Source: Hansschlegelia zhihuaiae (GTDB taxonomy: Bacteria; Pseudomonadota; Alphaproteobacteria; Rhizobiales; Methylopilaceae). Taken from it: 42,920 nucleotides of DNA. The DNA is taken from assembly GCF_004103825.1 (NCBI RefSeq), contig NZ_RYFI01000018.1:49818-92737 (forward strand), in the 5' to 3' direction. The notes beneath the pieces are model-generated. The model was not told the origin of the DNA, searched no databases, and worked only from the letters and a program-made list of their open reading frames with translations. The position numbers and the translations under genes were made by a program. Shown here piece by piece: positions 10,190 through 15,277 of the stretch. Every line of letters starts with the position of its first letter. Positions within the stretch are counted from its first letter, which is position 1.

Positions 10190-10803
10190 GAGGCGAGCGC
10201 GCCGAGCGAACGCAGCGCGGCGAGGACGGGCAGCAGCGGCAGGCCTAGGATCGCGAAATAGTCGCCCTCGACGCGCTCGAAGAGCTGCGCGCCGATCCCC
10301 TCGAACTGATAGCCGCCGACACTCGTCAGCGCGCCTTCGCCGGCGGCCTCGAGATAGGCGTCCAGGAAGTCCTCGCCGAGCGGCCGCGTGGCCAGCCGGA
10401 CCTCCGCCACGCCGCTCCACAGCACATGTCCGTCGCGCACGATCGCCGCGCCGGAGAACAGCGCGTGCGTCCGGCCCGAAAGCCGCAAGAGCTGCGAGCG
10501 GCCGGCGTCGCGGGAGACGGGCTTGGTGAACCGCTCCCCGTCGAGCGAGAGCGTCTGGTCCGCCCCGACCACCAGCCGTCCCGCCAGCCGGCTTGAGACG
10601 TCGATCGCCTTGGCGACCGCGAGCGCGCCCGCGACGTTGGCGGGGTTCGCGCCGTCGCCTGAAAGCTGCGCCTCGACGGCGCGCTCGTCGAGCTCGGCGG
10701 GCCGCGCCTGCACGGGCAGACCGGCGTCCTTGAGGATCGCCATGCGGATCGCGCTCTTCGAAGCGAGGACGAGCGGCGCGGGCTCGCGCCACAGCGCGCT
10801 CAC
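10186..10803 (-). CDS. maf: Maf-family nucleotide pyrophosphatase
   Basis: The 205-residue product starts at GTG 10803, overlapping the ppsR stop. LVLASKSAIRMAILKDAGL is the Maf N-terminal loop; VVGADQTL carries the catalytic aspartate, and SVGGYQFEGIGAQLFE the C-terminal motif. Maf proteins hydrolyse non-canonical nucleoside triphosphates such as modified pyrimidine nucleotides. The subfamily substrate cannot be read from the sequence. This gene lies next to the origin in most relatives. Confidence 0.93.
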   Translation of the reverse strand: MSALWREPAPLVLASKSAIRMAILKDAGLPVQARPAELDERAVEAQLSGDGANPANVAGALAVAKAIDVSSRLAGRLVVGADQTLSLDGERFTKPVSRDAGRSQLLRLSGRTHALFSGAAIVRDGHVLWSGVAEVRLATRPLGEDFLDAYLEAAGEGALTSVGGYQFEGIGAQLFERVEGDYFAILGLPLLPVLAALRSLGALAS

Positions 10804-11678
10804 GGGCCTGTCCCGCCAGCGACGGGGGACTCGACGGCGCGGCGCGCGCGATGCTCGTTCAGCATCGAGACGATCGACGCCGCGGTCTCCTCGATAGAAC
10901 GCCGCGTGACGTCGATCATCGGCCAGCCGTTGCGGGCGCAGAGCTTGCGTGACGAGACGATCTCGGCCGCCACGGCGTCGCGGTCGACATAGGCGGCCTC
11001 GCTGAGCCGGCCCCGCATCGCGCCTTCCAGCCCCAGGATCCGGTTGTGGCGCACGGCGACGATCCGGTCGGGGGTCGCGATCAGGCCGACGATCAGCGGA
11101 GCCTCGAGCTCTTCGAGCCCGGGCGGCAGCGGCGCGTCGGGCACCAGCGGCACGTTCGCGGTCTTCACACCGCGGTTGGCGAGATAGATCGAGGTCGGGG
11201 TCTTGGACGTCCGGCTCACGCCGAGCAGCACGACGTCGGCGCCTGCGAGGTCGTGGGCGCCCTGGCCGTCGTCGTGGGCCATCGTGTAGTTCAACGCGTC
11301 GATCCGCCGGAAATAGTCCTCGTTGAGGTCGTGCTGGGCGCCGGCCTGGGCGGCGCTCTCCATGCCGAGGAAGCTGCGCATCAGCTGGAACAGCGGCGAC
11401 AGCACTGAGAGGCACGGGCAGCCGAGCTCGCGGGCTCGCGCTTCGAGCGCCACGATCAGCCCTTCGTCGACCAGCGTGTAGAGCACGATGCCCGGGTCTT
11501 CGGCGATCTCGTTCAGCACGCGCTCGAGCTGCCGGGCCGAGCGCACCAGCGGATAGACGTGCTCGACCGCCTCGACGCTGCGGAACTGGGAGGCGGCGGC
11601 GCGCGCCACCGCCATCAGCGTCTCGCCGGTCGCGTCGGACACCAGATGGAAATGGAAAGTCGGGCGCGGCGTCGACAT
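10800..11678 (-). CDS. ppsR: Pyruvate,phosphate dikinase regulatory protein (kinase/pyrophosphorylase)
   Basis: This 292-residue DUF299 protein carries the P-loop-like GVSRTSKTPTS (153-163) and N-terminal HLVSDATGET. Family members reversibly phosphorylate a threonine of pyruvate,phosphate dikinase or PEP synthase: ADP-dependent inactivation and phosphate-dependent reactivation. It corresponds to RP001, which flanks the replication origin opposite hemE in Caulobacter and Rickettsia. It is the first gene of the leftward run and starts at the putative origin. Confidence 0.93.
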   Translation of the reverse strand: MSTPRPTFHFHLVSDATGETLMAVARAAASQFRSVEAVEHVYPLVRSARQLERVLNEIAEDPGIVLYTLVDEGLIVALEARARELGCPCLSVLSPLFQLMRSFLGMESAAQAGAQHDLNEDYFRRIDALNYTMAHDDGQGAHDLAGADVVLLGVSRTSKTPTSIYLANRGVKTANVPLVPDAPLPPGLEELEAPLIVGLIATPDRIVAVRHNRILGLEGAMRGRLSEAAYVDRDAVAAEIVSSRKLCARNGWPMIDVTRRSIEETAASIVSMLNEHRARRAVESPVAGGTGP

Positions 11679-12010
11679 CGGCGTTTCGGACGAGGCGTCC
11701 CGGCGCCGACAAGGAGTCGACAGGCTGTGGACGGCTGTGGACGGATCGCCGTCGCTCCACGCGTCGGCGGGGCCACTGTCGCCGAGGCGGCGAATTTCAT
11801 CAACAGGGGCCGCGAGACGGGAGAGCGCGGGACGACGGATCGGGAAAGGGTGAACAAGTCCTTAACGACGCTGTTCCGCCGCACTTCTTAACGGACCGTT
11901 AACGCGGGCTTCCTGTGGACGGCTTGTGGAGCTTTCGGAACGGCTGTAATCCGCCCCCCTAGAAAAAGAAGCAGAAGAGTCTCTCTAAGGATTATTGGGA
12001 AGGAGAGTCG
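11679..12010. other. Putative chromosomal replication origin (oriC) between ppsR and hemE
   Basis: The 332-bp gap separates ppsR (RP001) from hemE, the position of the mapped origin in Caulobacter. It holds four TGTGGA hexamers (11726, 11736, 11914, 11925), three extended to TGTGGACGG, which match six of nine bases of the reverse DnaA box. It also holds a perfect CtrA site and an AT-richer purine tract (about 11958-12003) beside hemE that could unwind. Genes point away from it on both sides. None of the DnaA-like sites is a full consensus box, so the call rests mostly on synteny. Confidence 0.65.
11888..11903. promoter_or_regulatory. CtrA binding site, TTAA-N7-TTAAC
   Basis: TTAA at 11888-11891, seven bases, then TTAAC at 11899-11903: an exact match to the CtrA consensus. 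A half-site TTAAC lies at 11862-11866. In Caulobacter CtrA represses initiation by binding several such sites in the origin. The two halves also form a near-palindrome. Confidence 0.6.
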
Positions 12011-13081
12011 GTGAGCGGAGCTGTGGGCGAACGCCGGCGGGAAGGACGCGTAAAGCACGCGTCGGGCCTCATCAGGGCGCTGTCCGGAGAGACGCTTACG
12101 CCGCCTCCGGTCTGGCTGATGCGGCAGGCCGGCCGCTATCTGCCGGAATATCGCGAGCTCCGCGCCAAGGCGGGCGGCTTCCTCGATCTCTGCTTCACGC
12201 CCGAGCTCGCCGCCGAGGTCACGCTGCAGCCGATCAGACGCTATGACCTCGACGCCGCGATCCTGTTCTCCGACATCCTGGTCGTGCCGCATGCGCTCGG
12301 CCAGGAGGTGCGCTTCGTCGAAGGCGAGGGGCCCCGGCTCGATCCGATCGCTGACCGCAAGGAGTTCGGCCGCCTCAGTGACGAGATCGACCTGGGCGCG
12401 CTTGCGCCGGTCTACGAGACGGTGTCGCGCGTCCGGAGCGCGCTTGACCAATCGAAAGCGCTGATCGGCTTCTGCGGCGCGCCTTATACGGTCGCGACCT
12501 ACATGGTGGCGGGCCGCGGCGGCGACGAGCAGGCGCCCGCTCGCCTCCTCGCCTATCGCGAGCCTGAGCTGTTCGCCGAACTCATTGACCGGCTGGTCGC
12601 GGCCTCCGTTGCGCATCTCGTGGCGCAGCTCCGCGCAGGGGCCGACGCGGTGCAGATCTTCGACAGCTGGAGCGGCGATCTGCCCCCGGGCGAATTCGCG
12701 CGCTGGTCGACCGCGCCGATCGCCGAGATCTGCGCGCGCGTCAGGGCGGAGGTTCCGGGCGCCAAGATCATCGCCTTCGCGCGCGGCGCAGGCGCCAAGC
12801 TCGCGGATTTCGCCGGCGCGGTGCCGGCCGACGGCTTCGGCCTCGCGACCTCCGAGGACCTGCGGGTCGCCCGATCGGCCGTCTACGCCTCCAGGGCGCT
12901 CCAGGGCGCGGTCGACCCGATCGCCCTGGTGGCGGGCGGCGAGGCGCTCGACCGCGCCGTGGACGAGGTCCTGGACGCTCTGGGCGGCTATCCGATGATC
13001 CTCAACCTCGGCCACGGCGTGAGGCAGGAGACGCCGCCGGAGCATGTCGCAAGGCTCGTGGCGCGGGTCCGGGGAGCGTAA
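12011..13081 (+). CDS. hemE: Uroporphyrinogen decarboxylase
   Basis: HemE decarboxylates uroporphyrinogen III to coproporphyrinogen III in haem synthesis. The 356-residue product begins at GTG 12011, with AGGAG five bases upstream (12001-12005), which decides the start. The N-terminal signature PPVWLMRQAGRYLPEYR (32-48) and the second signature region GFCGAPYTVATYM are intact, as is FDSWSGDL. The enzyme is cytoplasmic. hemJ follows after a nested repeat element. Confidence 0.97.
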   Translation: MSGAVGERRREGRVKHASGLIRALSGETLTPPPVWLMRQAGRYLPEYRELRAKAGGFLDLCFTPELAAEVTLQPIRRYDLDAAILFSDILVVPHALGQEVRFVEGEGPRLDPIADRKEFGRLSDEIDLGALAPVYETVSRVRSALDQSKALIGFCGAPYTVATYMVAGRGGDEQAPARLLAYREPELFAELIDRLVAASVAHLVAQLRAGADAVQIFDSWSGDLPPGEFARWSTAPIAEICARVRAEVPGAKIIAFARGAGAKLADFAGAVPADGFGLATSEDLRVARSAVYASRALQGAVDPIALVAGGEALDRAVDEVLDALGGYPMILNLGHGVRQETPPEHVARLVARVRGA

Positions 13082-13084
13082 GGC

Positions 13085-13288
13085 GTCATCCCGGCCGCAA
13101 CGAAGCGGAGCGCCGGGAGCGTATGGAAGTCTGATCGTAAACCTCGTCGTCGTCCTCCGGCTTGACCGGAGGACCCATCGTCGGCGTCGAGCTCCGCGCT
13201 CGACTTGGATGGTCCGGTCAAGCCGGACCATGACGAGCTCAATTCTGCGAACGATCCCGACGCTCCGCTTCGCTGCGGCCGGGATGAC
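13085..13288. repeat. Nested palindromic element, family B copy 1 (hemE-hemJ gap)
   Basis: The outer arms (13085-13112 and 13261-13288) are 28 bp and differ at one position when one is reverse-complemented. Inside them lies a second inverted repeat (about 13143-13176 and 13206-13237) built on CCGGCTTGACCGG, similar in design to family A. This looks like one element inserted within another. It fills the whole intergenic gap. Confidence 0.85.
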
Positions 13289-13303
13289 GACTTTGGAAAG
13301 ACC

Positions 13304-13732
13304 ATGGACCTCTATCTCTGGATCAAGGCCCTGCATGTCATCGCGGTGATCGCGTGGATGGCCGCGACGCTCTATCTGCCGCGCCTCTTCGTCTATCATT
13401 CGGTCGTCCCGCGGGGCTCGGAGCAGTCCGAGACCTTCAAGGTCATGGAGCGTCGGCTGCTCAAGGCGATCATGACCCCGGCCATGATCGTGGCGTGGCT
13501 CGCCGGCCTGTTCCTCGTCTGGAAGGGCGGATGGATGGCCTCGGGCTGGCTGCACGCCAAGCTCGTCCTCGTGATCCTGCTTTCGGCGATGCACGGCTTC
13601 CTGGCCGGGCAGGTCCGCGCCTTCGCGCAGGATCGCAACGAGCGGAGCCAGAGGTTTTTCCGGATCGTCAACGAGGTCCCGACCGTGCTGATGATCGCGA
13701 TCGTCGTGCTGGTGGTGGTGAAGCCGTTCTGA
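13304..13732 (+). CDS. hemJ: HemJ-type protoporphyrinogen IX oxidase
   Basis: The 142-residue protein has four predicted membrane helices and the conserved N-terminal LWIKALHVIAVIAWMA, with His11 the likely haem ligand, and PRLFVYH. HemJ oxidises protoporphyrinogen IX to protoporphyrin IX in the membrane and replaces HemG/HemY in most alphaproteobacteria. The start at ATG 13304 has GGAAAG upstream; an earlier in-frame ATG (13205) lies within repeat DNA. Placement after hemE supports the haem role. Confidence 0.93.
   Translation: MDLYLWIKALHVIAVIAWMAATLYLPRLFVYHSVVPRGSEQSETFKVMERRLLKAIMTPAMIVAWLAGLFLVWKGGWMASGWLHAKLVLVILLSAMHGFLAGQVRAFAQDRNERSQRFFRIVNEVPTVLMIAIVVLVVVKPF

Positions 13733-14011: not shown

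Positions 14012-15277
<1,266 letters not shown>

Follow-up and report, generated by a model that had tools for sequence, protein, structure and literature searches.

A predicted replication origin of the hemE/ppsR type with a lineage-conserved CtrA-type site in Hansschlegelia zhihuaiae

The 332-bp intergenic region between the divergent genes ppsR and hemE of Hansschlegelia zhihuaiae (positions 11679 to 12010 of the window) is predicted to be an oriC of the hemE/ppsR type with a lineage-conserved CtrA site, the kind expected for the class; the probability of this reading is put at roughly 0.8. That chromosome replication starts within this gap is, on the comparative data, very probable. The window, meaning the whole stretch of DNA analysed, comprises 42,920 nt of the forward strand of contig NZ_RYFI01000018.1 (positions 49,818 to 92,737; C10:49818-92737) from assembly GCF_004103825.1, which amounts to 4.62 Mb in 61 contigs, this contig being 92.7 kb long. 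Directly 5' of the window, at about C10:48971-49766, the 60-mers are almost without G or C, perhaps representing a run of N or a scaffold gap.

The two genes bordering the gap, called ppsR and hemE in the initial annotation, are both matched by curated models. The former (10800..11678, minus strand) is a PEP synthase regulator of the COG1806/RP001 type (NF003742, 324 bits, E 7.2e-97), and the latter (12011..13081, plus strand) encodes uroporphyrinogen decarboxylase from a GTG start (TIGR01464, 367 bits). On the 3' side of hemE lie a hemJ-like gene of the UPF0093 family (13205..13732, plus strand; PF03653, 194 bits), presumably hemJ itself, and rho (14012..15277, plus strand; TIGR00767, 705 bits). 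The hemE/COG1806 (ppsR) pair borders the Caulobacter origin according to the accessible text of PMC1914354, and the initial statement that this origin lies between the same two genes is borne out for the flanking pair.

Judged by PpsR, the genome is closest to Chenggangzhangella methanolivorans, Methylopila and Hansschlegelia, and it appears to belong to the Methylopilaceae or to lie near them, in the order Hyphomicrobiales. A record named Chelatococcus sambhunathii S14 groups inside the same clade on the PpsR tree. For comparison, the best 80 of 246 ppsR loci were taken as relatives; hemE diverges from ppsR in 71 of these, giving 72 gaps with the window included, 11 of them in the Methylopilaceae clade of the window. 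A second, class-wide set drew on 93 genomes with hemE, of which the best-scoring supplied the loci, and contains 28 gaps, one per family. When the locus of the window was left out, hemE was found beside ppsR in 28 of 29 class-wide hemE loci.

The gap contains four TGTGGA hexamers, at 11726, 11736, 11914 and 11925, all where they had been annotated. They account for four of the 14 in the window, a total that does not amount to a clear window-wide enrichment, as six of 100 shuffles reach it. The hexamers form two tandem pairs of DnaA-box cores on the plus strand. In the first pair (11726..11741) the cores are 10 bp apart, and the first of them reads GGTGGA or AGTGGA in the ten other clade gaps; in the second pair (11914..11930) they are 11 bp apart, the first core being TGTGGA in 10 of the 11 clade gaps and the second an invariant TTGTGGA. 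Each of the four has at least three mismatches to the DnaA box TTATCCACA, and no sequence in the gap comes within one mismatch of it, so the sites are as weak as was initially described; they are nevertheless conserved in the aligned gaps. The only match within two mismatches is TCATCAACA (11797..11805, plus strand, two mismatches), overlooked in the initial annotation, whose CATCAACA is invariant in the 11 aligned gaps. The four cores and TCATCAACA are both clustered and conserved. Among the 71 relatives, TGTGGA/TCCACA occurs at 7.75 per kb in the gaps versus 0.34 per kb in the flanks, a 23-fold difference. The G+C content is 62% in the gap and about 70% in its surroundings, and the lowest 60-mers of the gap (47%) lie on the hemE side, in agreement with the AT-richer tract that had been noticed next to hemE. 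Of the three GANTC sequences in the gap, one, GAGTC at 11977..11981, is presumably a CcrM-type site. An IHF-type site was found in none of the 11 clade gaps, either by WATCA-N5-WTR, the consensus given in the accessible text of PMC1914354, or by WATCA-N4/5-TTR.

Motif clustering is what singles out the ppsR-hemE gap. TGTGGA and TTAAC each reach their highest density there, both in the 92.7-kb contig and in 180 kb of the chromosome of Chenggangzhangella CHL1, the nearest named relative with a complete chromosome, and 80 stretches of 20 kb sampled from CHL1, 1.6 Mb in all, contained no 330-bp segment with at least four TGTGGA. The same stretches were used to calculate GC skew. The sampled cumulative skew of CHL1 is lowest at the end of the stretch 2,800,001-2,820,000, and the ppsR-hemE gap lies at about 2,828,651-2,828,983, within a stretch of positive skew. 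When the steps were reduced to 4 kb, the trough proved flat between 2.75 and 2.82 Mb and bottomed out at 2,753,002, 76 kb from the gap; the contig of H. zhihuaiae has its minimum about 15 kb away from the gap, at C10:76,466. With a resolution of no better than about 80 kb, skew supports the neighbourhood of the gap rather than an exact position. The initial annotation had named a skew minimum located elsewhere as an argument against an origin here; the CHL1 minimum adjoins the gap at this resolution, although it does not pinpoint it.

The polarity of GGGNAGGG in CHL1 has its trough at 2.66-2.82 Mb and turns again near 5.3 Mb; the counts on the contig of the window, 2/0 to the left and 2/1 to the right of the gap, are uninformative, as is the skew of this contig. 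CHL1 has two parS sites, at 2,781,936 and 2,783,918, about 45 kb from the gap. The parS pair of H. zhihuaiae is on contig C14, in loci matching the CHL1 parS locus, the region being rearranged between the two genomes. Compared with CHL1 2.74-2.92 Mb, the origin neighbourhood on C10 is rearranged in several blocks. The dnaA gene is located on contig C2 (118506-119022), apart from the contig of the predicted origin, at a locus containing a run of N.

The CtrA-type site TTAACGGACCGTTAAC (11888..11903, plus strand), identified by the pattern TTAA-N7-TTAAC and by its conservation, is present as initially reported and is the sole match in the window; none of 100 dinucleotide shuffles contains one. 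The TTAAC half-site annotated at 11862 is likewise in place (11862..11866, plus strand), and is retained at its column in a part of the 11 aligned gaps. Alignment of the gap across close relatives, which the initial annotation had proposed as a check, revealed the exact TTAA-N7-TTAAC in 9 of the 11 Methylopilaceae-clade gaps and one mismatch in the other two, which read GTAAAC in place of GTTAAC. The site occupies the same alignment column in eight of the 11 gaps and is shifted in one (L022). Lack of conservation in relatives had been the other finding named as speaking against an origin; neither this nor the skew turned out that way, and conservation of the gap, clustering of its motifs and the CHL1 skew trough together support the oriC reading.

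Farther from the window the site becomes patchy. It is exact in 23 of the 72 gaps and lacking in that form from 49, and its presence or absence requires nine changes on the PpsR tree, where 9 of the 11 rows of the clade of the window have it and a 31-row clade composed mainly of Xanthobacteraceae, Nitrobacteraceae and Hyphomicrobiaceae has no exact copy. The gaps of the 71 relatives contain 24 places with TTAA-N7-TTAAC in 25,542 nt, versus none in 758,732 nt of flanking sequence, the 24 places coming from related loci and not being 24 independent events; the reversed pattern, used as a control, gave none in the gaps and three in the flanks. Among the 28 class-wide gaps an exact TTAA-N7-TTAA occurs in only two, with four gaps within one mismatch, so that the flanking genes by themselves do not imply CtrA at the origin.

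The genome itself encodes CtrA. A response regulator of 232 aa (L215:1066-1764) consists of a receiver and a DNA-binding domain according to Pfam, and its best match among solved structures is CtrA 4qpj (225 bits, residues 1-118, the receiver domain). A genome-wide search yielded 16 matches to TTAA-N7-TTAAC at 12 places, versus three matches for the reversed pattern. Beside 8 of the 11 other places, ten ORFs chosen by a codon-position rule were considered; they encode MinC, a flagellar rod protein, FlgI, TrcR, a DUF1465 protein, an ABC ATPase, a ParA-like ATPase, a PAS protein and 2-oxoglutarate dehydrogenase, while one of the ten had no family match. That several of these genes belong to division, the flagellum or the cell cycle fits CtrA, given its functions as described in the accessible part of PMC2877005. 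At C7:1981-1997 (L011) the site lies shortly 5' of the gene for the ParA-like ATPase, which has a MerR-like N-terminal part; this may be a partition operon that belongs to a second replicon and is controlled by CtrA. Among the papers searched, none names both Methylopila and CtrA.

Initiation at such an origin may proceed as follows. DnaA would assemble on clustered low-affinity sites, namely the two tandem TGTGGA pairs and TCATCAACA, and the assembled DnaA would open the AT-richer tract adjoining hemE. Phosphorylated CtrA would occupy 11888-11903, at a distance of 10 bp from the DnaA pair on the hemE side, and block this assembly until removed; it may additionally repress hemE. Binding of CtrA to this site is likely, and a block of initiation by the bound protein, in line with the gating initially suggested, is somewhat favoured. 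A less probable, yet serious alternative is that the gap is oriC but CtrA exerts no control over initiation, the site acting on hemE transcription or being a leftover, as in lineages that retain CtrA for motility and division. The scarcity of the exact site, in two of the 28 class-wide and 23 of the 72 nearer gaps, and its nine changes on the tree speak for this view, as do species in which loss of ctrA is harmless to growth, reported in the accessible text of PMC8116508. Against it, eight of the 11 clade gaps keep the site in the same column and one has it shifted, while the surrounding bases vary, and its distance from the DnaA-like pair is short.

The AT-richer tract, a candidate unwinding element, reads TAG-AAA-AAG-AAG-CAG-AAG (11960..11977, plus strand), i.e. 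six triplets on the hemE-sense strand, each with A in the middle, at positions -51 to -34 relative to the hemE start. It is preceded by the box-like 9-mer TAATCCGCC (11947..11955, plus strand), which has three mismatches to TTATCCACA, ends 4 nt before the tract and could equally be part of a -10 promoter element. The tract has no second match in the genome at up to three mismatches. It is unlikely to be coding, as its first triplet is a TAG that lies in the hemE frame, 51 nt ahead of the hemE start; the tracts of several relatives also begin with TAA or TAG, irrespective of frame. All 11 clade gaps have, near their hemE end, six or seven central-A triplets on the hemE-sense strand, and in eight of them the tract begins four bases after TAATCCGCC. 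The tract is conserved and periodic within the order Hyphomicrobiales. On this evidence it is somewhat more probable than otherwise that the tract is the part of the gap that opens, and it may also be a leader or promoter element.

An unlikely explanation of the whole gap is that of a divergent promoter only, in which CtrA acts on both hemE and ppsR, the conserved right-hand block of CTTGTGGA, TGTAAT and the tract serves as promoter and leader of hemE, and replication starts at another point of the skew trough. Indeed, CTTGTGGA followed 15-16 bp on by TGTAAT resembles a -35/-10 pair, as read by eye from the alignment, the tract sits at -51 to -34 of the hemE start, and the skew leaves some 80 kb of choice. 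Loci where hemE sits elsewhere bear on this explanation. Nine of the 80 ppsR loci have no hemE alongside; upstream of ppsR, five of these show a match to hemJ and one more a match to rho (L058, L096, L040, L063, L070 and L076, with hemE not between ppsR and hemJ or rho), and a seventh ends early at a contig edge. In Rhodoblastus acidophilus (L093, L097) ppsR has other neighbours, without DnaA-like cores. All six gaps of the hemJ/rho type keep TGTGGA/TCCACA cores (one to three within 900 nt), and two contain TTAA-N7-TTAA. In L096 and L058, which are metagenome-assembled genomes, the gap between ppsR and hemJ retains both cores and tract. By contrast, the 400 nt before the relocated hemE match contain 0, 0, 1 and 0 cores in L096, L058, L097 and L093, respectively, with no TTAA-N7-TTAA and no triplet run longer than four. 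Since cores and tract stay beside ppsR and do not precede the relocated hemE, these cases, all from draft or metagenome assemblies, suggest that the cluster belongs to the place and not to hemE. The tract there could also be explained by a promoter retained for hemJ-rho, so the observation counts against a hemE promoter and not against every promoter. A promoter alone, moreover, accounts neither for the 23-fold TGTGGA enrichment nor for a clustering seen nowhere else in 180 kb of the CHL1 trough, and promoter and origin roles can coexist. The weakest alternative takes TTAACGG-A-CCGTTAA, an inverted repeat whose 7-bp arms flank a central A, for the target of a different dimeric regulator instead of CtrA. 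It is very improbable, because the perfect repeat is shared by only one (L022) of the eight clade relatives with an exact TTAA-N7-TTAAC, the seven others keeping the site without the repeat, and because further matches in the genome lie near minC, flagellar genes and trcR.

Returning to the gap as a predicted origin, the periodicity of the tract is a lead and not a result, and its link to DnaA is putative. The A-every-third pattern was first spotted by eye in the alignment, and its statistics are post hoc. In the last 60 nt of the 72 gaps the longest such run averages 4.28, versus 3.25 (sd 0.11) in shuffles (+9.5 sd; post hoc), and in the 62 less similar gaps 4.23 versus 3.30 (also post hoc); the opposite strand and the next 60 nt upstream showed no excess of these runs in the 72 gaps. 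A box-like 9-mer, by a pattern that was set after seeing the data and with spacers of 2-8 tried, is present in 43 of the 72 gaps; 26 of these have a run of at least three, 24 of them with a spacer of 4.

A class-wide module of box plus central A was considered and rejected. The first test gave 16 of 28 gaps versus 4.8 expected, but the boxes did not survive its shuffles, and 15-96 nt of hemE coding sequence remained in the gaps. The same test also gave the published polarity in 9 of 28 gaps versus 3.1, and boxes on the other strand in 11 and 5 of 28 versus 2.7 and 2.4, a sign of the same artefact; for the 72 gaps it gave an excess of runs of A, C and G alike (z 6.5, 8.1 and 4.9). In a controlled test the boxes were kept, only the downstream DNA was shuffled and the hemE coding sequence was trimmed. 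A central A after a DnaA box was then not above chance, either class-wide (15 of the 26 gaps with a box versus 13.0, sd 1.9) or in the nearer set (17 of 56 versus 14.6), nor was the published central T in either set (class-wide 9 versus 12.1). A central C followed the box in 21 of 26 class-wide gaps versus 14.6 (sd 1.8), and C at every third base exceeded the shuffles by 7.0 sd across the 28 trimmed class-wide gaps; for the 72 gaps, boxes within two mismatches were followed by no base clearly more often than by chance. Several class-wide gaps (e.g. L228, L233, L246, L254) show TTAT(C/T)CACA or TCATCCACA, then GG, then a C-rich tract of CAC, TAC or AAC with C at every third base.

The arrangement resembles the BUS (DnaA box, spacer and DnaA-trios) described by Pelliciari et al. 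2021 (PMC8287927) in its box-like 9-mer, 4-nt C-rich spacer and triplet run with a fixed central base in an AT-richer tract. It differs in strand: the central A of the window is on the hemE-sense strand, where the published trios would need a central T. DnaA-trios are located on the strand with the 5' tail according to the accessible text of PMC8287927, PMC8235120 and PMC10316083, and reversal of trio polarity abolishes opening in H. pylori, as stated in the accessible text of PMC8235120. The published form of BUS was rejected for the tract, the central A being on the wrong strand. The BUS rule, i.e. a DnaA box with up to two mismatches within 16 bp of at least three NAN triplets on the 5'-tail strand, matched none of the 11 Methylopilaceae-clade gaps, the window included, in a script of our own, outside which species-specific boxes fall. 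No alphaproteobacterial DnaA-trio was found in the accessible text of PMC8235120, PMC10316083 and PMC10797057. It is doubtful, and at best a long shot, that the tract is an unwinding element outside the published trio rule, namely a three-base repeat on the hemE-sense strand with a fixed A (Hyphomicrobiales) or C (class-wide). If so, DnaA would grip the other strand or read a position of the trio other than its middle A, and a sense-strand C would match the G of 3'-GAT-5'.

Among known systems, Cori of Caulobacter crescentus is alike in its flanking genes, TTAA-N7-TTAA CtrA-type site, weak DnaA sites and AT-richer tract, according to the accessible text of PMC1914354 and PMC10797057. By its description, Cori has five CtrA sites, whereas the gap of the window has one full site and one half-site, and unlike Cori the gap has no TTATCCACA within one mismatch; Cori also has an IHF-type site, a feature that need not define all origins of this type, while none was found in the gap by the two patterns used. 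The predicted origins of Rickettsia and Wolbachia, in the accessible text of PMC1914354, likewise adjoin hemE and vary in the number of CtrA sites down to none. They differ in being AT-rich and in having been called with DnaA boxes TTATNCACA and IHF sites, and in Wolbachia the partner gene is a different one.

The predicted origin of H. zhihuaiae adds the Methylopilaceae clade to the range of the hemE/ppsR type of origin that carries a conserved CtrA site. If the tract beside hemE is the unwinding element, it would offer a short, testable target. The clade of 31 rows that lacks the exact CtrA-type site would provide a clean comparison of whether control of replication by CtrA comes and goes with the site.
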